From contig MZZL01000408.1 in NCBI GenBank assembly GCA_002749535.1, forward strand, positions 356,693 to 420,692: a stretch of DNA of 64,000 bases, read 5' to 3'. Shown here one piece after another: positions 5,011-34,600 of the stretch (the first letter of the stretch is position 1; each line of letters starts with the position of its first letter). This stretch comes from Apophysomyces variabilis (taxonomy: Eukaryota > Mucoromycota > Mucoromycetes > Mucorales > Mucoraceae). The notes beneath the pieces are model-generated. The model was not told the origin of the DNA and did not search any database. It saw only the letters and a list, made by a program, of their open reading frames with translations. Position numbers and translations under genes: made by a program.

Positions 5011-7272
5011 TTACAGCTTAGCTTTGGGAGTGGATGGCACGGAATTCAATACATTGTACAATTCTTCTATCTGAGCTTCGTAGTGTTTCTTGGCTTGGGG
5101 TCGCTTGACCTTGAAAGTGGGTGTGAGAAGGTCATTTTCGATCGAGAAAGGTTCAGTTTCCAAATAAATAGCCTTAGCAAATTCAAAACCACGCAGCTGA
5201 GCCTTCTTGCCAACGCGGGTGAGCTGGTCAAGGACGAGCTTGTTGACCTCAGGATGACGGCAGAGTTCCTGGAAGCTCAACTTCTTTGCTGCAATAGCAG
5301 GTAGTTTGGCGGCTACAAGGCCTGGGAGTACTTCGGGGTCTGGCACAACGATGGCCACCAGCTGGCTCTGCAATGAATCGCCATGGATATAGATTTGGGC
5401 TACAACTGGATCCTTGGCATAAACATTTTCGATCTTTTCGGGAGCGATGTATTCGCCTTGAGCAAGCTTGAAGATGTTCTTCTTGCGGTCGATGATGACG
5501 ATAGCACCACGTTCGTTGACCATACCAATGTCACCCGTATGGAACCATCCCTCTTCATCAATGGCTTCGCGTGTCTTTTCCTCATCTTTATAGTAACCCT
5601 GGAAGATGTTGGGACCGCGCACGCAAATCTCACCTCGGGGACAGGGGTCCGTGGACAGATAGTCCATCTCAGGAACATCCAGCAACTTGATTTCGTTACA
5701 AGTGAAAGGACCTCCCAGATGACCAGCCAAATATTCACCCTCATAATGCGCCAAGGTGGCTGCCGTGGTTTCAGTAGCACCATAACCTTCACGGATTTCA
5801 CAGCAAAGAGCGACACGCAAGAATTGCATTACATCCTTGCCGATGGGGGCTGACCCGGTCAGCATAGAACGCATGCGGCCACCCAAAGCCAACTTAACCT
5901 TGTTGAACACTAATCTATCATACAAGGCATGTGTATAACCCTTTCCGCTTTCCAGATTGGCGAGCTTGGTAGCCACGGCGCGACGGCACAAAGCACCTTT
6001 TGCGCCTGGGGCTTCAATTGTCTGTTGCGCAATCTTGCTGTAAATTCTGTTCAGGAGACGAGGCACGGTCGACATGAAGGTGGGTTTCAGTTCCTGAATA
6101 TCTTCGACCAACAGATTCATATCGCCACCGAAATATCCGATCCGAGCACCGACGCACAGGACCGTCATATCGCTGACACGACCAAAGATATGGGCCAACG
6201 GCAGATAAGAAATGCTTACATCATCGACACGAGCATCCATAGCTTGGCTACTTGCAGACACCGCAGCTACAAAATTACGGTGGGACAACATGGCGCCCTT
6301 TTTTTTCCATTTCAAATTTTAATACTTATCTTTTAGTATGACTTCATTCGCATGTGAAAATTTGCGGTTTCTTTACCTTTGGCATGCCCGTAGTTCCGCT
6401 GGTGTACATCAAACAGGCTAAATCGTCTGGTTTTGGATAATTGTGCGAACGCTTGTTTTTCTTGCCTGAATCTTCAAGAGTGGGGAAGTCCAAGAGGAGG
6501 ATGTTTTTCTCTTCAGCCCAGGCTTTGATAATGGCACTCTTCGAAGCGACACCAGAGACAGCAGGGGTATTGTCCTCGATAGAGTCCATGGAAATAACCG
6601 CCTTCAGGTTGGGTAGTTTATGTCTCAGCTTCAAGAGATCCGCAATGTGGTCGGCCGAGCAAACGATGATTTCCAGTTCGGCGTGATTCACAACGTACTC
6701 GACGGTGTCTGGACCAAGCGTGTCATAAAGGGCAACTGTATAGAGACCGTAAGCAGCGCAAGCCAAATCGGTAATGGTGAATTCTGGACGGTTAACAGCC
6801 CAGATACCAATAGGTATCTGTTTGGTGCGCGGGTCGTTCAAGGTATGGTTAATGAGATTCATCAAACCAGAGCCAACATGGGTGATACGATGGGAGACTT
6901 GACGGAAAGTTTCCCAAACGTAAGGACCTCTTTTACCCGTCTTGGGATCCAGAGGGCGATAACCCAGGCATGGACGGTCGCGGGAAATCTTCAAACCTAT
7001 AAGAGCAACGATTTAGTATTCCTTTGAGCATAGAAGACGACAAGATAGCTTACCAGTATGAAACAAGTCATACATGGTTTTGACTTTAGGAGACATCGAT
7101 TCCTCAACAACCGGTCTCTTAGCATTTCGATAAATGCCTGTAAGAACAAAGACAGTGTGAGCATGCAGGGAAGGAAGCAAGATCTTTCTACTTTTGATCT
7201 TTTACCTGTTTGACCAGGTCTTCTGGTATCTGGGACTTCGTATGTCTGTCTGTCCAAGCTGAATTTGGCCAT
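5011..7272 (-). CDS. long-chain-fatty-acid--CoA ligase (ACSL/FAA type)
   Basis: The exons are 7272-7206, 7137-7054, 6996-6377 and 6297-5011, giving 685 aa, the usual size for this family. The enzyme activates fatty acids to acyl-CoA through an acyl-AMP intermediate. The AMP-binding P-loop YTSGTTGMPK-G is split by the third intron. Other adenylate-forming motifs are GYGATETTA, DEEGWFHTGDIG and the fatty-acyl-CoA synthetase signature around DRKKNIFKLAQGEYIAPEKIE. The ATG at 7272 gives MAKFSLDRQTYEVP, and the conserved PCLGYRPLD/TFRQVS region follows early, as in yeast Faa1/Faa4 and animal ACSL. No strong N-terminal TM is visible, so the protein is probably cytosolic or peripheral on ER, peroxisome or lipid droplet. 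Which paralogue group it belongs to needs a tree. Confidence 0.93.
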
Positions 7273-9166: not shown

Positions 9167-10930
9167 ATGTCGATACGGCTGCTACAGAGCTCTCGTAGGA
9201 ATGCCATCACTTCGGCATTAAAGCCCCACTGGAACTCCGTCTTGAGGAGATCCGAATCTAGTACAGGTTATGCAAAGGTACAATGGCGCTTGGCAACATC
9301 AAAAAAGGAGAAACTGAAAATGCACGGGTTAGTCATTAGATAAATCTAGTAAGACTGAGCAAGAAGCCGATGTGTTGTGCAAAGTCACAACTCTTCCTAA
9401 CGGCATTCGCGTTGCTTCGGAGAACACGCCTGGTCATTTCAGTTCTATAGGCGTTTACGTGGACGCTGGCAGCCGATATGAAACCAACCGTACGCGTGGC
9501 GTGAGCCATATTCTGGATAGACTGGCATTCAAGGTAAGAAAAAAAAAGCAAAAACAAAATAGGAAAGACGCAAAGGTTGAGATATCATAGAATGTTTATT
9601 TAAAAGCTATCGTTCTTGCCTATAGAGCACGGCGAACAGGACAGCAGACCAAGTAGTTGCTGAAGTGGAGTCTTTAGGTGGAAACGTCTTGTGCTCTTCG
9701 ACTCGTGAATCCATGATGTACCAAGCGGCTATTTTCTCCCAAGATTTGGATCGTGCCATATCTCTCTTTTCAGAAGTGGTCTGTCAACCTATCATTGATG
9801 AATTGGAAGTAGAAGAGCAGAGGCAAACAGCCATATACGAAATTGACGATATTTGGTCGCGGCCGGAAAGCATCCTTCCTGAAATTCTGCACACCGTTGC
9901 TTTCAAAGGGAATACACTAGGAAATCCATTATTATGCCCAGCTGATAGTTTACAATCAATGACACCGGCGATTGTCCAGCAATATAGGAAGACATGGTAT
10001 CGTCCTGAGCGCATGGTGATTGCTGCGTGTGGTGCTCGCCATGATGAGGTGCTAGACCTGGCATACAAGTACTTTGGACACATACCGAAATCGGAAGAAA
10101 ACCTAGACTCTGTCATGATGCATCAGGAAGCAATGCGACGGCTACATAAACCGATCGAAAAGCCATCGCTGCTGCGATCCATGTTCAGCGCTAAAAAAGA
10201 GCCTACTGCCTACGAACTAGCAACGGAACCAGCAAAGTATGTGGGTGGCATCCAAAGAGTTCATACTGGCGCTGATGCATTGCTGAATCACGTGTATATT
10301 GCATTTGAGGGTTTGCCGATCAGTGATCCCGATATCTACGCCCTTGCAACGCTCCAGATTCTGCTAGGTGGAGGAGGCTCCTTTTCGGCTGGCGGGCCGG
10401 GAAAAGGCATGTACTCACGTTTGTTCACCAATGTGCTCAATCAACATTATTGGGTTGAATCTTGTCAAGCATTCAATCACTGCTATACCGATTCTGGATT
10501 ATTCGGTATCTCCGGATCTTGTCCCCCTAACTACACCCCAGCATTAGTGGAAGTCATCTGCAGAGAGCTTGATCTCGTGTCGAGCGCTGATATTGATCGC
10601 TTCAGTGTCCAAGAGTCGGAATTATCGCGTGCGAAGAACCAGCTAAAGGGCTCTTTATTAATGAACCTTGAGAGTCGTATGGTACAGTTAGAGGACTTGG
10701 GTAGACAGATTCAGGTCCATGGCAAGAAGACTGGGGTCGACGAGATGATAGCCAACATTGACCGCGTTAGTATGAAAGAATTACGACGGGTCGCTGCTCG
10801 TGTACTTCGTGGGGCAGTAAGCATTTCCAGCGGGGGTACTGGAAAGGCTTCTATCGTGATCCACGGTGATCTTAGCCACGCGAATCGCATAGAAGAGACT
10901 GTAGAAAAATATGGGCTAGGTAGTGGTTAA
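9167..10930 (+). CDS. MAS2: mitochondrial processing peptidase subunit alpha
   Basis: The exons are 9167-9277, 9354-9533 and 9626-10930, giving 531 aa. The protein is the non-catalytic substrate-recognition partner of MPP-beta in the M16 metallopeptidase dimer that removes matrix presequences. The N-terminus [19 protein letters not shown] is itself a basic amphipathic presequence. The [10 protein letters not shown] start of the M16 domain follows. The region [11 protein letters not shown] is where catalytic subunits carry the HXXEH zinc motif, and here that motif is absent, as expected for alpha. The alpha-specific glycine-rich loop [19 protein letters not shown] lies in exon 3. The second intron (9534-9625) breaks exactly between LAFK and STANRTA. 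I call alpha rather than beta with confidence because of the loop and the missing zinc ligands. Confidence 0.94.
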
Positions 10931-13784
10931 TAGCGGAATGTGAGCCGATCGACATGCTATAGAAAACATAAACCCTGTATGCATATCATTTCTTTTAGCT
11001 TAAAAGGCACAGGTTATCTGATAGGCTACTACTACAGCGTAGTAGCGAGATGTAATAAACACTGGGTGTATTAATACGCCAAGATTCAAATTTGACAATG
11101 GTGCATCGCTCACTGTATGTTATTCACAAGGATCTTTCATCCATCTTTATTTGTAACAGACTTCACGATTTCCGAAATATAATCACAGAGCCACTGACGT
11201 CTGTAAAAAGGTTGCGCGACTGTCTTGGCTTGTATCCGAGTTCATTCCGAGCTCTAGTGCGCTTATCCTTTCACTAGAAGATGAGGTAATGAACGCAACT
11301 ATAACTGGATTCGACATTGCGTCTTTGGAAAGTATCGGTACGCAAACTTAAAATTTACTGCTTTTTGCGCAAGATCCACTTCATTTTTTATATAGATGAG
11401 AAGACATCGTGTCAAAGTTATCGCTTTACCTCATGTTATGGGATCATACTAGTCACGGGGTACGGCCATGATCAACATTGCTTGATAGACACCATGACGC
11501 ATACTAAAAATAATGTGGTAACTCAAAAGAAAAAGTTATTCTTAATTTAGCTGTTATCCTGATGAATGTGAACACTAAAAAAGGTCTCTATGGGACGTAA
11601 ATCCTTGCTACAGTATGACCCCTACATGGGATTTTACCTTTGGGTTTGGGATAGTCGCTGAAATCTGGAAGAATCCCATCATCTTGGCCATGTATCAGAC
11701 TAACAGGCTCAGTGTACGGCTTGTAGCTCGTGGATTCGATGTGAAAGCAGTAAGTAGGACTTTACTGTTCATAGTTGACCATCATTGCACAGTTTGATGA
11801 CAGCGTGACCCAGGTGATTCCAGAATACGTTCTATAATTTCTCTTATGGTCCGCAAGGTAAACAATATGTAACTATAGCAATGCAGACCCAAAGCAATTG
11901 GCTAACCTATTGATGTATGGCCTTATGGAACGCTTGTATTCAAGTACAGTACAAACAGAATGCAGAGAAATACATTATCAAACGTTTAAAATTATTCCTG
12001 CTTTGAGCACTGGCTTACCTCAAAAACGAACATCGAAAGTATCTTTCTCACATTATACTAAAGAAATGTCGTTTTGCTGTTGGGTCCCACATAAAAGGTC
12101 TTGGAGGACCACAAATTTCCATTCAAGGCAAACTTTTCAGATACCGTTGCTACCTCATTCGCAGAAAAGTTTCACTCCGAACGCCGTTTCAAGCCCATTT
12201 CCATATTTGAAAATTAGCGAATATATTAGGGAAGCCACTGATTTCTACCAAAAAAAACAAAACTGGGGCTGCATTACCCTCATCCATCAATACAGGAAAA
12301 GGGAAAATCACTGTTACTCAATACACCAAAACAGAAAGTGTGATCATTGCAACGTTTTACAATCAAAAATATAGTCACTACCACACTTAAAAAGAATCAT
12401 CTCATGGTTATAGAAAGGGAGCTCTTGCCCTCCTTTCTACTTCAATGCGTATTTTATATATTATAAGTTGTGTCTGTCCGTACTATCCTGAGAAACTTGT
12501 ATACAGCTTTACAAATAAAATTAATAGCCGGCCAATAGTCTCTCCATGCACTTGGAATAGGTTTTCAACAATCGTTTCCATATCATCCTCTGACAATTAT
12601 CTCTTCAAGCACTGAGAATAGCTTTTCGTACTTAGGCCAGGAGAAGCTGCGTAAGCAGCTTCAAAAATTACTTCCACGGTTGCTGCAATATGTGTCTAAT
12701 GAACCTATACCTGACACCAAATGGCTGGGTGCGGTGGGTGTGCGGTGGAATGGTGGGGAGGGGAGGGGGGAAGGCGGGCGCGCTGCGAAGCGAGCCGGGC
12801 CAAGGCTGACCATCTTTAGACAACGGTGCCTTTAAATTCGTAAAAGCCGTGACAGGAAACTTTGATCCTGCACGATCCGCTTTTTCCACCACTGCAGCAT
12901 GTGAGAGAAAGCTATTTTGTTTCTCCGGATACCTAACAAGCAGTCAAGAGGCCGAAACACAGGCATTAATCTGAATAGTCGTTGCTATACTATTGGGATG
13001 TATTTGCTGGGTAACCTCATCTCAATTTCTTGGGAAATAGTCAAACTGCGAATGTCCTTTGAGGAGTTATCGCCATTTTGACTTTGCTTGAAAGACACCT
13101 CGCATGTTTTTGCTTCGTTTTCATAATACATTATCTAACTTGCTTAGGCACTAACCATTCTCGGTGACCCAATAAATGTTGTCTTATTATTCTGCCACGT
13201 TGCTTGGTAGCGCTTCCAAAGCATAAGCCATCCATTTCGCGACGGATATGTATAACTGCGCCGCTGCGATCAATGCACATTTGAATACTTATTCCTTCGT
13301 TAATCAAGATAACATGAACCTGTGAAATATGAATATCTTAATACAAACAATCACTCTACATACTGGACATGGAGATTTCGTTGACCACTGTTGTCAAAAG
13401 AACGAACCAGATTCAAAGGTAAACATAGCTACTTAAGCAATTATATAATACATAAGAAGAACAATTACGAGCAGTGTAATTGTGCGTGAAATGATCGACA
13501 CATCAAATCTTTTTTGAGAATATTTAACGGCGATTCATCCAACGGCATTGATCATGGTCAGAGGAGACTCAGATGGTTTCCCTTGGTAACGGAAGAGATA
13601 CCCACATCAATTTATTACGGACTTAATCATAATGATTCAGTCATTTATGACAAAGTTATTCTGTTATATATGTTTGATCGTTTTCCTTTCTTTATTCCAA
13701 TCTTCTTTTACCCATTTCTTCTTTAAGCTTCTTCTTTTTCCTTCCGAGTTTCAAGGAGATGCCGCCTAAAAGCGCAAATCAACA
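10931..13784. other. gene-poor flank of the Fanzor relic
   Basis: No gene can be supported here. A 158-aa open frame (11898-12374, +) has no recognisable motif, and neighbouring frames look equally coding-like or not at all. A G-rich, CpG-rich island at about 12,720-12,800 is listed separately. I see no serine or tyrosine recombinase that could be the mobility partner of the Fanzor, and no clear terminal repeats. Confidence 0.4.
12752..12778 (+). other. G-quadruplex-forming motif
   Basis: Runs of four, four, six, two and three G lie within about 25 bases (12755-12778), separated by one or two bases. This meets the usual G4 pattern. It lies in a local GC-rich patch (12,725-12,800) in otherwise AT-rich sequence, with no gene attached. 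Confidence 0.6.
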
Positions 13785-16700
13785 ATGAAAAGAACAGGTA
13801 TGACGAAATGTATTGTACAAGAATGTCTTCTTAATGGCAATCACACTGATGATGACGATAACGGAGTTATCGCTTTTACTAGCGATTCACTATTTTAAGA
13901 TATTGTATTAGACACTCTTGCCAAAGTGGATCTTTCTCAAGTGTCAGAGAGCACCGTGAAGTGGCTGAAGACAGTCTGCGAACTAACTACAGCTCCACCT
14001 GTCCGAAAGAAAAGAAAGAAGACCGTTGAGGAGAAGGAGGCCGAGGCGAAGCGAAAAAAAAGCGGCAAAATCGAAGAATCCTATAAAGTCTATATAACCG
14101 ATCCCAACAAATACTGCAACACCATAAAATTTCGTCGCCAAGGACAATGCGATCACATTCTCGCTGTTCAAGCAGCCTGTGTCCAAGCCATGTCGCATCC
14201 AAATCGGAAGATGCCAAAGAACGATTAGGGGAGTCGCCCCTGCCTTACACGAGAAAGATCAGTTTGGCTGCGGTGTACAGCGAAAACATAGTGCTTAGAA
14301 TATGAGACTTACAGACATCTATAAAAAGTTAGTATTCTCTTTTTGTTGTGCTGAATTCTCACACATGAAATGTGGTTTAGCTTTGACGCAAGAAACTGAG
14401 CTACTTTCTTCACGCTTTGTCCTTTGGCGATTATCCAACAGCAAGCCTATTCCGCATCTGTGTTTCCAGCAGGGCTTTTTCTATGCATGCGGACAAATGA
14501 TTTTGGGAAGAAACATCACCTCAAGGCAAATACTACAGCAACCAAAATTTCTCGCAGACTTGCACACTGTCTACAAGGAATATGCGAAATTAAGGACAGG
14601 CCAAGACGATAAACCGTTAGTTGACATACCCGGTGATATAATGCACTGTTTCGCGTCTACATGTGCTCAAATGGCAGTCGCGGCTTCCAATCATGTAGTC
14701 GAAAATTATAGTCAACGTATGGAGAAGTATATCAAATACTGTCTCCAAATTGAGCTGGCAAGTAGAACACCTGTCAATGTTTTTAGCTTAACGCACTTTG
14801 TGCAAAAGCAGGAAAAGCTCAAGATAGATATCACAACGGAAGATATAAAGAAACTGGCCAAGTTTGCCTATGACATTGGGGCAAAGGGACAACCGCATTA
14901 TCCGTACTCAGTCGTGCCAAGGGACGAATTCAAGACTGCAATCAATACGGTCTTGCAGAATGTCAATATTGGTCCTGAAAATGTTCCTGTCACGTCAACC
15001 GAGCTGACGGCTAAACCTCATGTCTATATGCGGCCTTTGTACGAAATCCTCGAGGACCTCGAGCCTTTAGGTGATACACCAGTCCGCAAACCGATGCCGA
15101 TCCCTTCTCGAGGGTGGTTATTTCGCAAATTTTCAGAGAAATTAGAGAGTTTCAAGAATCCTTTCAAGACGAAAAAATCATTCTTAATAGGGTGGACCCG
15201 AAAAGCTATTTGTAGTCTAGCCGAAGATTTACCTAAGGTAACAAAACAAAAAGGAGGGAATTCATCACGTTAAAAATGGGATATAGCTTCAAAAGCAACG
15301 ACAACGGTGTCACATGTATAATTCTTTGCGCTAAGCAAACATCTCTTAATGCACCAAACTTATTCGAGAAAGAGATACGATCAGTGTTCAAAGAGGATAT
15401 TTCTTCAGTAGACTATGTTTATATACAGAAGCTTTTGACAAAAACTGCTAGAAAAGTGGTCAGAGGGGTTTTTATGCCAAAAATCCAAGGTTCCAGCGAA
15501 CGTCTATTTATAATCATGCCACGAACGGCAACTACCTGGCGATATATCCAAATAGATCACCAAACATTAGCATCATTGGTTGGAGTTAGCCAAAGAGCAA
15601 ACAAAGACGAAATGTTTTGGGAAGCGTTTGCTTTCACAAAAACAAAAGAAATACGATCATTAGATGAAATGAAGAACTCAAACCAGAAAATGTTTTGGTC
15701 GCTCGCAACAGACGGTTACACAGCGGCGTTTACGTTCTCCAGGAAAAGGCAACACTTGACTGAAGATAAGAAGTCGGCAAAAACTATGAAGGACTTTCAG
15801 GGGGATCTGTATGGCTTTGACTTGATAGGCGTAGATCCTGGGATAACGGATGCGTATGTTGCCAGCAATAGTCATGAAAAATATAGCCATGAGATCATAC
15901 CATCATCCACGAAAGAATTTTACCAAACTCGCCCATTACAACGCAAGCAAAGCAATCATGGACCGTATGAAAAACGAAAAGCCCAAGATCCAGCAAATCG
16001 AAAAAGATATGCCTAGCGCAAGGACGGCCAGTATATCTCAGTTCGATCGTTATGCTCGCTTTTTATTGTTGCACATGTCGACATTACACCAATACTACGA
16101 TAAGAGGTATGCAAGCCTCCGTTTTTGGCGGTAAGCTTAAAATCGTCATTCTATGTGCATCATTAACTTTATGTACCGCTCATTGAAGACATATTGATCG
16201 CCAACAGGCTAGTGACGAGTTTGCGGAACGTTTAATATCCAGTGGCAGCAAATATCCTACAAAAAACACCAGAAATCAGAGAAGACATCGTAAGCAAAAG
16301 AAGAAACTCCGGAAAACGGCAAAACAAGACCAAGGCAGGAACTGTTAAGCGAACGGAAATTTCGGATACTGAACCGAGGTAAGAGTTAAAATGTGAAAAT
16401 AGATGCTTTGTCGGTGACATGGACAAGTCGTCGTCGTTTGGACTCTTCCCTGGAAAATAGAAGTAGAACCAGTTGTCGAAGGCTGCCGAATACATTTGCG
16501 AGGTAAAAGTCAACAGATAATTTAAAAGATTGGCTATGATAGTAGAAATAAATGGCCAAAGGCTACGCCGTATCCGACCCAAAGAAAGCCACTGTTTGCT
16601 TTTGGAAGTGCCATGTTCAATAGCACCTTGAAAGGCACACTAGCAGGAATTACCAACATCATTAGGAAGAAATATTAAAGAGAATGAATCCAGAGGACGA

Positions 16701-16976
16701 TGCAAGGTCGTAGACGTTGACGAGTTCAAAACGTCCAAAATTTGTTCTGGCTGTGGCGCAGAGAAACTACGTAACGTAAAAGGATCGCTGGGTCAGTCGT
16801 TGCATGCCGTCGTGCACTGCGAACAATGCAAAACGGTTTGGAATCGGGATTGTAACGCCAGCAGAAATATTAGACGTATTGCAGAGCATATGGCACTCAA
16901 TAACAATAACCGACCATCACCTTTTCAAAGAAGAAACCAATTGCCGGGACAAACCCCAAGCAAGACATGCAAGTGA
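13785..16976 (+). pseudogene. decayed Fanzor (eukaryotic TnpB-like RNA-guided nuclease)
   Basis: The reading frame is broken but collinear with Fanzor proteins. In order it shows: MKRTGMTKCIVQ (13785); a Lys-rich segment (13,990-14,090); FYACGQMILGRNITSRQIL and NHVVENYSQRMEKYI (about 14,480-14,740); WRYIQIDHQTLASLVG; FWSLATDGYTAAFTFSRKR; RuvC-I as LIGVDPGITDAYVASN (Asp codon 15834); HEIIPSSTKEFY; RFLLLHMSTLHQYYDKRY; FAFGSAMFNSTLKG (16586 on); VDVDEFKTSKICSGCG (CX2C at 16743-16754); a second CX2C (HCEQCK); and RuvC-III as WNRDCNASRNIRRI (Asp codon 16848). The stop is at 16974. The order RuvC-I, zinc finger, RuvC-III with the DXNAXXNI ending is diagnostic of TnpB/Fanzor. Breaks include a TAA at 13896 and frame changes near 14,195, 15,250, 15,927 and 16,676. 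A likely real intron spans 16131-16211 (GTAAGC...CTAG). A TAA at 16345 and more stops follow before 16586. No transposase or terminal repeats were found. Confidence 0.85.
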
Positions 16977-19157
16977 CTCAGTTCGCAGTGGTGAGTGAAA
17001 TCCACATGACTTTGCCAGTGTTACTAAGCGACTACGATCTATCCAACGCAGTGGAACGAGCCGAAGAGACTTGTTAACGAGTAAAATAACCGTTCCCATC
17101 GGCGTTTGTTAAATGGTTAACCTATTTTGCAAAAGGAAATGGTATAGTTTAGTAAATGCATTGCTTGAGTAATCCCATAAGGAACAACTCCATAAGACCG
17201 GAAGTCTGTAGTATGCCGCTTTCACTGTCATGGTACCTTAGAACTGTCAGGGTATCGCTGTTATCAGCCAAAGCCATGGTAAAAGTTTGCCAGAAGCGGC
17301 TTATAGTTTACCCAAAATTTCTGTACTAAAGTCCTTGCTTTCATATCGTGCAGATGACGGAGTTAACTACAGCAACTTTCATACTTGTCATCTTATAGTT
17401 TACCAAGGAATATTTGTATCATTAGCTTATACTAAGTTCATACTCGCACAAATCGTGATACAAGGATCCAAGCTCGAAGGAGTTTCGTTAGGACGAACCA
17501 AATGTGAACTTAGATGGTCAACAACAGGGGAAAGCGACCCCATTGCTATTTTTTGTTTGCGGAATAGCTACACGTTGTATGATTAAACGGCATGAACTAG
17601 TAATCTTTTGCTAACGAATGTTCTTTTGCAATCTTATTTGATCTGTATGTGACGCTCTGCTGGACCGCAGCGTGAAACGTATTGTTGTGCAACAAATATT
17701 CAGTTGTGGTTTCATTGGAAAGCGCGGGACAGGCTGGTCGGATATAGATGGGATATATCAAAGTCATTTGAACTGTAAAAAGGTATCACCAACAGACGGG
17801 CATGTTTTTCTTTTCATACCAAATAAAGGGGACATTAAACAGTTCTGTATAACATAGTAAAGTTATGCTTAGACAAGCAATGTCACTTTAAACATGAGTG
17901 ACCGAATTTGTTAAATTGGCCTGCACAAGTGTACAGCCATTCTTGAACTTTAAAAATGGGACTAAATGTGAAGCAGCGCGTACCTATGGGAATATTTGAG
18001 TCGTGTCCATATCGCTCGCTTCCTTTCTCTCTATTTCCATGGGGATAGTGTATGTGTGTCACATTTCCTTGTGTAATGAAGATCAATGGTGCACCTCAAC
18101 AATATGTTGAGTTTTTTGAGACTGGTTACAAACGTGCTATGCCCTAGGGAAGAAAAAGGAAAAGATCGTAGAAATTACAAAGAAATATCAACTACCAGAA
18201 AGAAAATAGAGAGGCTGTTCAAGGAGACGAGGTCCTGTTCCTATATCAACCCCGTAAGTGTTTTCTAAGGCATTCAAACATAGCGGTGAAGGATAGGGTT
18301 AATACATGATCATATTGGGTATTGGATATACAGGGTCTTCGGTGAAGAGCATGATGTGATGATGAGCTAAAAGCCGTTTCTTTTTTTTTTGTTTTCTTGC
18401 TTCTTTTCTAGGGACACTCCTAAGCTAAAAACGTGCTCCTCTCACTCCCGGAACCCGTGCCCGCAAGCATAACACCTGTTTCATACAAGGAAAGAAATGT
18501 ATCAAAAATGTCTAAGAGAAAGATGGAGAAACACAGTCCAACACCAATAAATTTCATGGCAAACTAACATTGCATTCTTCTTTGCCACTAAGTCTCTCTG
18601 ACAAATGCTGGTAAAAAGTTGTACTTTGCTCCTTTTAACAAGGAGAACTAAATAACGCCGCTGTACAAAGATGCCTCGGAAAAGAAAAAGAATCGTTTGT
18701 TAATGTATTGGGCGCGCGTCTTTTTGCCTGACGCTGAATGCACGACCAGAAAAAAAACATGTTTGTGCGTTCGAAAGCGAGGGAGTTACGATGACGGGAG
18801 AGGTTTGAAGGGGATATGAGCGTCTTTTTCTTTTTCTTTTTTTTGTCATTGCCATCGAACGATACGAAAAGAGAGGGGTGGGAAAAGGGGAGGAACAAAG
18901 GGTACTACGTTCCATATCGGGCATTTCGCTTGGCTGCCGTGTATAATGAACTGCAAGAAGAAAATAAGGGGGCGAAATATGGATGTGTGTATTTGTTTTA
19001 TTTTGCACAAAGGTAAAAAAGGGAGGCTAACTAACCTAAAACACGGGGAGCATGCGTTGAATGAAGGAATGGTATATAAGTAAACACGCTCTGCCACTTG
19101 GAATGATAAGGACTAAGTCTTCAGGAACTTCTTTTACCTATATTTGTATCGATAACG
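16977..19157. other. intergenic; Fanzor 3' flank, then upstream region of the kinase gene
   Basis: No coding gene is supported. The first 130 bases are where a guide (omega) RNA would be expected if the Fanzor still had one. The last 100 bases carry the TATA box of the kinase gene. Several short frames (for example 17287-17586) show no motif. Confidence 0.4.
19073..19080 (+). promoter_or_regulatory. TATA box of the Ran1-like kinase gene
   Basis: The sequence TATATAAG begins 85 bases upstream of the kinase start codon, a normal distance for a fungal core promoter with a short leader. Confidence 0.55.
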
Positions 19158-20348
19158 ATGTTGCCAAACGAATTACAGGACAATCATGCAGACGCCCAAC
19201 TTCTCATTAACTCCTACGTGGACGACAACATGATCCAATTACAGTCTATCCTCGGCACAGGAGCGTATGGTGTTGTATATCTTGGCCGACATCGAATGAC
19301 AGGCAAATCCTACGCTGTAAAATGGATCACCAACACTAAATCAGCTGAGAATGAAATTCGGATACATTCACACTTGAACGGACATAAGAATATCCTAGGA
19401 TTCGAGAAGGTGGTCCGCGAATATGGAAAGATCTTCCTCATCCTGGAATACGCGCGCGGCGGTGATTTATTTGCAGCTATTACAAAATGCGCTGTTCCTG
19501 ATAATCAGACCATTCGCCAGCTCTTCATTCAGATCCTAGACGCTATCCAACATTGTCACCAACATGGCGTTGCTCATCGCGACTTGAAACCAGAGAATAT
19601 CTTGCTTGTGGATCGATGCGTTAAATTAGCTGACTTTGGACTGGCAACCACACAGCCCGTTTCCGCCGAATTTGGATGTGGCTCGACCTTTTACTTTTCG
19701 CCAGAATGTCAAGGAGGCGTCATTCGCGATAACAAGCGTATCAAAGCTTATAGCACCCAATTGAACGACATTTGGAGTCTAGGCATCATCCTGATCAACC
19801 TTGTGGCTGGAAGGAATCCCTGGCGACAAGCCAACCTGGGCGATCCTACCTTTGCCGCTTACGCACGTAAACCACGCCGATTCTTCCGGCAGATCTTCCC
19901 TTGTATTTCCAACGAACTAGATCTTATCCTTCAACGAATCTTTTGCCTTGATCCAGCTCGACGTATTTCTCTACCTGAGCTTCGCTATCGCATCCTTTCC
20001 TGTAGAACCTTTCTACGTGACAAAGAGCCCCTGGCAAGTGTCACGGAAAATACGTTCAATGTCAACCATACCAACTTTGTGCCAACTTCACAACCCGTTA
20101 AAATGTCGTTAACCATCCTCGACTATGTAAACTACTTTACAGACGAATTTTCTCCCTCTACTACTTCTTCGCTCATCACACCACCTACGCCTTCCTGCTC
20201 TTCCTCTTCCTCTTCATCCTCTTCTTCCGAGACATCTCTCCATTCTCCCGCTGTACCAGAAACAGTAACACTAAACCAACCAAAACAGTTCATAGAAGAT
20301 CCTCTCTTGGTCCAGCCACCGTCGCCGTTCATCCATTGGACTGGTTAA
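19158..20348 (+). CDS. Ser/Thr protein kinase, Ran1/Sks1/Vhs1 family
   Basis: This is an intron-less gene of 396 aa. All kinase subdomains are present: the Gly-rich loop GTGAYGVVYLG, the Lys in YAVKW, HRDLKPENILL, DFGLATTQ and the APE region as GCGSTFYFSPEC. The DIWSLGIILINLVAGRNPWR and IFCLDPARRISLPELR segments are characteristic of the fungal Ran1 (Pat1)/Sks1/Vhs1 group. Members link nutrient state to cell cycle, meiosis or glucose adaptation. That role is known for the family and only inferred here. The C-terminal tail (from about residue 300) is low-complexity and includes a run of Ser codons. The catalytic residues are intact, so the kinase should be active. A TATA box lies 85 bp upstream of the ATG. 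Confidence 0.9.
   Translation: MLPNELQDNHADAQLLINSYVDDNMIQLQSILGTGAYGVVYLGRHRMTGKSYAVKWITNTKSAENEIRIHSHLNGHKNILGFEKVVREYGKIFLILEYARGGDLFAAITKCAVPDNQTIRQLFIQILDAIQHCHQHGVAHRDLKPENILLVDRCVKLADFGLATTQPVSAEFGCGSTFYFSPECQGGVIRDNKRIKAYSTQLNDIWSLGIILINLVAGRNPWRQANLGDPTFAAYARKPRRFFRQIFPCISNELDLILQRIFCLDPARRISLPELRYRILSCRTFLRDKEPLASVTENTFNVNHTNFVPTSQPVKMSLTILDYVNYFTDEFSPSTTSSLITPPTPSCSSSSSSSSSSETSLHSPAVPETVTLNQPKQFIEDPLLVQPPSPFIHWTG
20191..20229 (+). repeat. TCY-type microsatellite coding for poly-Ser
   Basis: This tandem TCT/TCC/TCA tract lies inside the kinase tail and encodes an almost uninterrupted Ser run. It is likely length-variable between strains. Confidence 0.7.
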
Positions 20349-31714: not shown

Positions 31715-34600
31715 CTACCAGTAGGGCAATTCAGATGATCTAGCTAATGCTGAAGTCGTTTGCCTTGGAAGCCGGATATGACCGTCTGCAGCGGTATCGG
31801 TCGGAAGAGGATTTTGGAATCCCAATAATACGCTCCGTGATGGAGACCCCGGAAGACTAGATGATGTCGGATTACATAGTATGTCATTCTGCTGATCTCC
31901 ACTGCCTTGTTTCCGTTCGGTTAGGTAAGATATGGAATGCATCCCATCTTCCGAAGAAATCAACGGTTGGTTTGTTTGCATGTTTGAGCTTTGATAAGAT
32001 TGATTCAGTACACCGTGAGCAAAGTAATTATTCCATTCTTCCGTATCTAATGAAGAAGGAACACCCCAGAAAGCTGTACCGAGAGGATCGAACTGTCTTT
32101 GTGAGGGACCGCGAATGGTTCCTGGAGCTGCAAACGGATCCATAGAAGGCGTATCGCTCATTGGGATAAATCCATACTGGCTTCCAGACGTTGATTCGGA
32201 TGAAGATACAAATGGAAATTTTTCATTGACCATTGTATAATCCATTCTTTGCACAGGAGCCACATCTTGCATCTCTCTCACAGCAATTTCTGAATTAGAA
32301 GACCTTTGGTACGCTTTCTCGCTCTTTTGCCGTGGTTCACTCTTGTGAACTAATTCTGGGGAATTCGGAACGGCGATAGACGGCGGTGGTGAATTCACCT
32401 CTTTACTCACTGGCTGTGGTACGTATTCATTGCATTCGAGGTTGATGTCCCTCAATCCGGCTAGCTCCCCAAGTATATTACAGCTACGTGCGGCATTAGT
32501 CCATGTCACCTCTATCTCGTCCAGCGCACGCATGATTTTGTTCACATTGACTTTTGCATCAAAGGCTTGCTCTGCATCCGGTGAAGACGCCAATTTGATA
32601 AAGATTATACCCGCAGTAAAAACGTAATATACCGTGTATGCAAAAACGTACTTGAGATGATTCTCTCCCAGCATAATGTTGACTATGTCTAGAATCGAAT
32701 AGGCAGCTGATATACAAATCTTAAAGGATGGCAAAGACATAGGTAATCGAGATTGTGTTGGCCCAGGGATAAACGGGCGATGGAGCAGAATAACGGTAGT
32801 GTAATAGATCATGTGCATCTGACAGATCGGCAATGGTGGATCGGGACCTGTTTCACCAAGCTGGGTATTCGGTAGCTTATACTGCAATGATGGTGGTAAA
32901 TTGTTGTACCAATTGGTAAGCTGTCTGTTCAGCGTGGTCAGAATATGATTGATGTGGTGAGACGGTCCATGATATCGCGCTTTGGCGTAATAGATATTCT
33001 TAAGGACATGTCCCAAGATATCGCACAACTTAATAAGATGGATAAACGACTCCACAATTTTCACAGGTGGCCTCGTCGAATCGGACTCGTTTCCAGCTTT
33101 GACTTCCTCATCATCATCCATTGAAGGAAAAGGTATGTCAATATCTCTTTCTTCAAAATTCGAGGAACGCCCAAATATAGCACTCGTTAGTCGATCTACA
33201 ATGAAGCAGCACCAAAATACGCGTTTCCGCCTTTGTCGTTCTGGCGGAGGGATATCCCACTGTTCACAGTTTCGGTTCAATCCAAGATCTTGTGCCATTC
33301 GAAACGCCTAACCAAGTACATTAAAAACACTTGCTATCCGTCGCTCTAACTCACCATGCCACTATATAACCATGCACGCGCAGCTTTCATCACACCGTGT
33401 TGATGACAGGATAAAAGAAGAAGTGCTTGTACCGTGGATATCTTCGGAATATCGTAGTAATCATCCAATAACTTCTTTGCTCGTTCAAAAAAAATATCAC
33501 CGGCAGTATCAGGAGAGTCCGGATCAGATCGGACTCTTTTATCGGGCGATAGACGCGACGCCAATGCATAGATTGCGTTCAACAGGAGGGGAGAAACCGG
33601 CTCTTCTGGAGAAGCGAAAGTCGAATTCAATTGTCTCTTGTAAAACATGGGCAAGAATGGATAGAAATTATCAAAGTATAGCTTCAGGAGATGATCCGAG
33701 AGATCAGAAGGCGGCAACTCTAGCGGGTTGGAGGAAGATAAGAACTGCTTTCGGGTTGTATCCGACGAGGATCTATGACCCCATCCAGAAAAATGGAAAG
33801 CACCATTCTGATAAGTGCGGCTATCTTGTAGTAGATAGTAACCTGAGGATTTCCCGAGGTAGCGAACCTGGCCTACCAACAAACCGTTTCTTCAGTTTAA
33901 CGGAGACAGGATACCGGTCAAAATCCAGTTGCATACCTGTCTCATCCATCGACAGCTGGCCCGTGCTGTCATCAACCGAGTCAGGGCTACTGGGTGGTGG
34001 CTGAGCAAGGGTTGGACTGGTCACGAGATACGCAGAGCTTGTCCCTGAGGCATCCGACTGTGTCTCAATTTGCAAATTGGCCTTGGACTTGCCGGAGTTT
34101 TGGCGTCGTGCGTAGGGATTTTTTTGACGGTCTCCTCTTCTTACTGGTCTTGTCTTAATCTGCTCTCCAGTCGACGTTTCGAGGGGAGAATTCAACTCCG
34201 CAAGCAGAGCCTGGGACCTGGGATTGTCCTCCTTGGCGAGTTCACCTAGAAAGCTCTCTAATCGATGCAATCGGTTCTCAATAGCCTCAATATAACCCTT
34301 GGGTGGTCCTCTCTACAAGACAATCCCTACAGTTTAGCGCAAAATATCGAATATCGCTCACAGCACTCACTTTTTTCGTTGTATCATTGTAACTACATTC
34401 AAGGCTGAAAGCCTGGCAATTACTACATATTGGCGACAGTCCATCACATTTAATCTTCTTGCGTCGACATAGATCACTGTAAAGAAAATAAGACTAGATC
34501 AGTAAACTGTCTTGTAACTGCGGTTAATTCTACTGTTGGGTTACCAAGCTCTGCTCACTCGTTGTCGTCTCGCAGCTGCATCGTCCCCACTGTTTGACAT
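31715..34600 (-). CDS. Zn2Cys6 transcription factor with fungal middle homology region
   Basis: Five exons (34600-34545, 34476-34371, 34312-33937, 33872-33355 and 33307-31715) give 882 aa. The first intron splits the zinc cluster at AWxC. The joined motif is CDLCRRKKIKCDG...CSNC...C with Gal4-type spacing. It is followed by a linker, RGPPKGYIEA, and a coiled coil (IENRLHRLESFLGEL). The fungal_trans regulatory domain starts at GQVRYLGKSSGYYLL and includes GMAFRMAQDLGL and RRKRVFWCCFIVDR. The C-terminal third is Ser/Pro/Gln-rich and likely activating. The intron 33936-33873 was placed by its ACAG/GTATGC donor and by restoring MDETGQVRYLG. The protein should act in the nucleus as a dimer on CGG half-sites. 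The target pathway cannot be read from sequence. A TATA box lies about 80 bp upstream. Confidence 0.92.

Follow-up and report, generated by a model that had tools for sequence, protein, structure and literature searches.

The window analysed here, a 64,000-nucleotide stretch of the genome of the mucoralean fungus Apophysomyces variabilis, holds at 13.8–17.0 kb a relic gene that is placed in Fanzor type 1 (Fanzor1) by its motifs and profile matches. Fanzors, found in eukaryotes, are related to TnpB and Cas12; in what way they benefit the elements that carry them has yet to be settled. Taking all lines of evidence jointly, we read the locus, with considerable confidence, as a dead copy of a Fanzor1-carrying DNA element, with a proposed RNA-guided role and a presumed mover acting in trans.

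Identity and exon structure of the gene

All four motifs quoted in the first-pass annotation of this DNA are present on the + strand, at the places given there and in collinear order: NHVVENYSQR (14689–14718), the RuvC-I motif LIGVDPGITDAY (15822–15857), a CX2C...CX2C zinc finger (16743–16829) and the RuvC-III motif WNRDCNASRNI (16839–16871). In a profile search, PF07282 matched the end of the last exon (16644–16976) with 50.2 bits and an E value of 2.9e-13 (cut-off 26.3 bits). The check proposed in the annotation, a search with TnpB/Fanzor profiles, thus gave a significant match of this type, and its Fanzor assignment was borne out, as type 1, by this match together with the Fanzor marks. The same exon ranks third among the 73 PF07282 matches listed for the A. 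variabilis genome. A Pfam scan of the other four pieces of the gene tract found no family above cut-off; according to passages of an earlier account, Fanzors vary greatly in their N-terminal half (PMC3627910).

Passages of a 2023 paper (PMC10711439) give as Fanzor marks a DPG in RuvC-I and a RuvC-II glutamate relocated to a place six residues ahead of the zinc finger, and as a mark of Fanzor1 a TDG motif in the WED domain. The window gene carries the DPG as VDPGITD (within 15822–15857), the alternative glutamate, six residues ahead of the zinc finger, in DEFKTSKIC (within 16716–16745), and the TDG in ATDGY (at about 15705–15719), the last being invariant in the nine rows of the exon c alignment. 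A C4 zinc finger followed by RD is present, as seen from the PF07282 score above cut-off and from WNRD, and the spacing in the Bao and Jurka pattern, D-X(125,275)-[TS][TS], comes to about 229 residues, given the inferred introns and exons.

The gene had been described as having lost its reading frame. This stands as far as true frameshifts go, but some of the frame changes belong to introns found throughout the family, as they are also seen in the majority of its members, with GT–AG signals at the changes; that introns account for part of the frame changes is supported, but not proven, by these signals. Read on the + strand, the gene begins with an N-terminal coding stretch of uncertain limits (13899–14228; open frame and family alignment), followed by exon b (14299–15237; open frame and relatives), the helical N-terminal half with NHVVENYSQR, which is open over 324 residues and whose start is not fixed. 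Inferred intron 1 (15238–15286; GT–AG, 49 nt) is placed by a frame change and by GT–AG signals in 10 of 11 copies, the donor being deleted in L055, and splices in frame in the family majority. Exon c (15287–16130) encodes the WED part with TDG and RuvC-I with DPG; inferred intron 2 (16131–16188; GT–AG, 58 nt) has its acceptor set by frame arithmetic, which replaced an early view that it runs to 16207; exon d (16189–16378) is rich in lysine and arginine; inferred intron 3 (16379–16509, limits uncertain) is placed by a GTAAGAG donor and a frame change; and exon e (16510–16976), recognized by PF07282 and by motifs, carries the alternative RuvC-II glutamate, the zinc finger and RuvC-III. Compared with the family, the copy in the window is broken further by single-base shifts in exons c, d and e, and a deletion has removed 28 nt near 13839, upstream of the N-terminal coding stretch. 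The exon limits used in the substitution, conservation and motif analyses differ slightly from those given here.

In three pairwise comparisons of sublineages, the stretch 16131–16207 scores 0.882, 0.961 and 0.895, and at most 0.7%, 1.8% and 0.2% of 76-nt windows are as conserved. Such strong conservation is unusual in an intron; the last 19 nt of the stretch probably encode protein. The stretch was found only in 13 loci of the same type as the window copy, and gave no Rfam match and no folding signal.

We compared the protein with solved structures in the PDB. A profile built from eight C-terminal exons of the A. variabilis genome matched TnpB-like proteins of solved structure and, likewise solved, the Fanzor1 proteins SpuFz1 (E 2.0e-6), GtFz1 (0.0017) and PpFz1 (0.0091); LaTranC (6.5e-8) outscored these three. 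With a profile of nearly the whole protein, made from a two-row alignment, SpuFz1 was the best of eight matches (E 5.2e-6). The exon b profile matched GtFz1 alone, at E 0.2; the exon c profile found no nuclease, only catalase at E 0.38. In single-sequence searches of the PDB, a mimivirus TnpB-like protein came first both for exon e (E 0.00099) and for a longer read-through protein (E 3.7e-5), exon c found nothing, and none of SpuFz1, GtFz1 and PpFz1 was recovered. The read-through protein had no match in the protein database, and no relative was found in the viral contigs searched. Matches of exon b to designed repeat proteins in the PDB were taken as chance helical matches, and AlphaFold models of exons c and b from nine-row alignments (mean pLDDT 34.5 and 37.3) were too poor for use.

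Decay and past selection

We asked how the gene has changed within its own family. This family, A, comprises 11 copies in the A. variabilis genome including that in the window, each with nearly the whole of the part corresponding to 13400–17077 and with pairwise likeness of 92.6–96.0%; further diverged or partial copies lie on contigs C112, C71, C76 and C87. Substitutions per site from the majority sequence, at codon positions 1, 2 and 3, were flat in exon b (0.0303, 0.0293 and 0.0295), nearly flat in exon c (0.0277, 0.0294 and 0.0308) and not flat in exon e (0.0330, 0.0196 and 0.0330), and the ratio of N to S relative to expectation was 0.94, 0.72 and 0.74 in exons b, c and e, respectively. 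Because change is nearly equal over codon positions, decay since the spread of family A has been largely neutral, though selection may have left a faint trace. When the comparison is with older relatives, in contrast, the third position changes most (0.195/0.178/0.261 against L064, 0.142/0.145/0.191 against L066 and 0.450/0.334/0.568 against L007), which shows that selection acted on the Fanzor protein earlier. The copy in the window is a fossil.

Two other views of the gene itself can be weighed on these results. That the zinc-ribbon match marks an unrelated protein, the other motifs having arisen by chance, could draw on the empty single-sequence search with the RuvC-I exon and on the catalase match of its profile, but it is already contradicted, and practically untenable, given that RuvC-I, the alternative RuvC-II, the zinc finger and RuvC-III are collinear, that Fanzor1 tops the near-full-length profile search and that the same exons recur in many copies. 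The introns that explain several frame changes, together with the long open exon b, would also suit a working, intron-rich Fanzor gene; we consider this highly improbable in view of the single-base shifts in three exons, the 28-nt deletion near the N-terminus and the mostly even spread of within-family substitutions over codon positions.

The mobile unit and its movement

The coordinates first given for the locus, 13785–16976, cover the gene; the mobile unit is larger, about 5.03 kb, and runs on the + strand from about 12046 to 17077, as judged by the end points of DNA matches within the genome. Family-A copies have a fixed right end and a variable left end; they are dispersed and share that right end amid unlike flanks, which marks the gene as cargo of a eukaryotic transposable element. 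Up to GACTTGT (exact in 10; L056 has one base changed), all 11 copies agree at the right end, and the bases that follow, counted by eye, are TAA in six copies, TAT in two, TAC in one and AGT in two. Ten inverted pairs were found, but none of them links one end of a family-A element to the other, and the long terminal inverted repeats (TIRs) of the MuDR-type Fanzor1 element are absent from the element in the window. No target duplications were seen by eye in the printed flanks of these old copies, including duplications of the MCi-2 pattern (11–12 bp, ATAATTNNNN(N)).

Between the gene and the right end lies a non-coding tail (16977–17077, + strand), which matches 15 places in the genome, namely the 11 family-A copies and four weaker ones at 76–80%. 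It is the putative place of a guide RNA, and only putative, since there is no excess folding energy (z −0.17 for 16940–17077) and divergence of 16977–17073 (0.0227 and 0.0390 in its halves) is like that of the rest of the element. Rfam gave no match over the gathering score; two matches under the gathering scores were taken as chance.

The left part behaves differently from the right end. A common left start is kept by four of the 11 copies (those in the window and on contigs C68, C78 and C71) and by the partial copy on C76, the sequence just before it being mostly CT- or CA-rich; the other seven begin inside, at positions corresponding to 12136 to 12861 of the window. L053 has an internal gap, and L051 retains a short remnant of the common start. 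The first 0.76 kb (12046–12808, + strand) also exists alone elsewhere as a solo repeat without the right end. The two solo copies read, L069 and L070, break off at one point, after window position 12808, and neither has a right end; we therefore gave up the idea that such solo modules arose from the Fanzor element by deletion. The solo module has a sharp inner end, and at its outer end CT-rich or similar simple sequence. At two places on contig C95, short matches to the first 130–200 bases of the element sit 5.7–5.8 kb upstream of other Fanzor zinc-finger matches; this hints, short of proving the two to be continuous, at a left part shared between Fanzor families.

The first-pass annotation placed the gene in a gene-poor tract with no recombinase within about 3 kb. 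The former was not borne out: an open reading frame (ORF) for an M16 peptidase (9626–10927) ends on one side and one for a protein kinase (19110–20345) begins on the other, and the window also encodes an AMP-binding enzyme (5014–6318), a cytochrome P450 (21008–21529) and a fungal transcription factor (31718–33307), so the element sits in a normal intergenic region flanked by protein-coding genes. The peptidase is 97% identical to the mitochondrial processing peptidase alpha of Apophysomyces ossiformis and 84% to a protein of Apophysomyces sp. BC1034, while none of the others among the 120 matches listed exceeds 72%; judged by this gene, the host stands nearest to A. ossiformis. The claim about the recombinase holds for the 15 of 33 ORFs scanned, among which we found neither a transposase domain nor a serine recombinase, the IS607-type mark of Fanzor2.

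It had also been suggested that intact relatives might exist in the same genome, and intact-looking ones, as predicted from sequence, were indeed found. PF07282 matches at least 73 places in the genome at E≤0.001. A second and younger family, B, was read at a locus on contig C93 (L071); nine places, including this one, are 99–100% alike over about 3.3 kb, many more are 91–97% alike, and matches number at least 49 in all, with 40 of 130 candidates scored. L071, the one copy whose gene was read, is open over 789 residues after four inferred introns (49–58 nt, each picked among two or more candidates), its start codon not being fixed, and its protein carries DPG, TDG, the alternative glutamate, the zinc finger and RD. 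The only database relative of this protein at E≤0.001 is a 521-residue A. ossiformis protein, 47% identical over 66%. Near its N-terminus there is a CxxC...H...C stretch, not seen in family A, which we take to resemble a zinc knuckle. The right end CCAGTA is found in all six family-B copies read and in all four copies of a further family (L002, L004, L006 and L008); that of family A differs. The left end of family B falls in or beyond runs of N. Three of its copies, examined for truncation and target duplications, are uninformative: two have N as their left flank, and the third has unlike sequence there, with an N next to the break. These comparisons suggest that Fanzor1 elements of this genome have a constant right end beside the Fanzor gene and an exchangeable left part, which is sometimes a repeat living on its own.

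The window copy and its nearest copy, L050, have indels in common, including the state near 15925, but the DNA to the right of the element is different in the two, beginning with its first bases. The probable explanation is that a copy moved again after it was broken, and such a move speaks for help in trans; alternatively, the same indels may have arisen twice by chance. By analogy with known Fanzors, a working copy would have made an RNA running through the right end, the last part of which would have copied flanking DNA as a guide; the Fanzor–RNA complex may then have cut matching DNA beside a short motif, and such cutting would help the element to persist or spread. As the copies themselves suggest, the factor that moved the DNA would have been encoded outside the element, and nothing but the right end was strictly preserved.

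What this mover was can be weighed among several candidates. Another borrowed transposase (Crypton-type, MuDR or Harbinger) has been proposed for other Fanzor1 elements of Mucorales, where a partial Crypton transposase is found in MCi-2A of Mucor and a Harbinger transposase in MCi-5; for the present element we regard it as a tentative and somewhat doubtful choice, given the lack of TIRs, of target duplications visible by eye and of transposase domains in the ORFs scanned. The element could instead be a non-autonomous Helitron that relies on Rep/helicase proteins supplied by its own genome, as a fixed 3′ end with a variable 5′ end is also found in CRe-1 to CRe-3 of Chlamydomonas, and Helitron_like_N matches 28 places in the genome, several of them in long open frames; this seems unlikely to us, as the family-A right end is not a plain CTRR end and, among the matches listed, Helitrons nowhere come closer than 15 kb to a match of the family-A left end or right end. 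Some of the 28 matches lie in open frames of more than 1000 residues, and Helitrons may be active in this genome. It is also conceivable, but very unlikely, that the Fanzor protein and its own guide RNA help one-sided copying from the right end, with no transposase and with left partners carried along.

Comparison with known systems

The solved Fanzor1 proteins SpuFz1, GtFz1 and PpFz1 (8gkh, 9cer and 9cf0) have the RuvC/zinc-finger core in common with the window protein, as judged by profile match; they are distant from it, and activity is known only for those three. We found no report on Fanzors in Apophysomyces in the open-licence literature; on Fanzors in Mucorales, one source is PMC11423790. 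As described in passages of PMC3627910, on which the element comparisons below rest, Fanzor1 has been known in Mucor, Rhizopus and Phycomyces since 2013.

The closest plan is that of MCi-2 of Mucor circinelloides, which also lives in a mucoralean host, numbers about a dozen copies, lacks TIRs and combines variable 5′ parts with a constant 3′ part that holds Fanzor1 (PMC3627910). Family A has the same constant 3′ part, variable 5′ parts and lack of TIRs. The two differ in that MCi-2 copies are 99% alike, against 92.6–96.0% in family A, that two MCi-2 subfamilies have 11–12 bp target duplications, while none were seen by eye here, and that the Crypton transposase part of MCi-2A has no counterpart in the ORFs scanned here (PMC3627910). 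CMe-1A of Cyanidioschyzon merolae resembles our element in that its 5′ 635 bp also form a separate element, like the left module, but it belongs to another host and has about 150 copies that are only about 80% alike (PMC3627910). The Fanzor1 Helitrons CRe-1 to CRe-3 resemble the copies here in keeping the 3′ end intact while showing 5′ truncations and internal deletions; known Helitrons match them at the ends (PMC3627910), whereas for family A no such match was found, as judged by proximity to Rep matches.

The element in the window thus adds a further Fanzor1 family to a kind already known from Mucorales. One dead family, and another with nine near-identical copies, provide a natural series on the mover and on the need for the nuclease.
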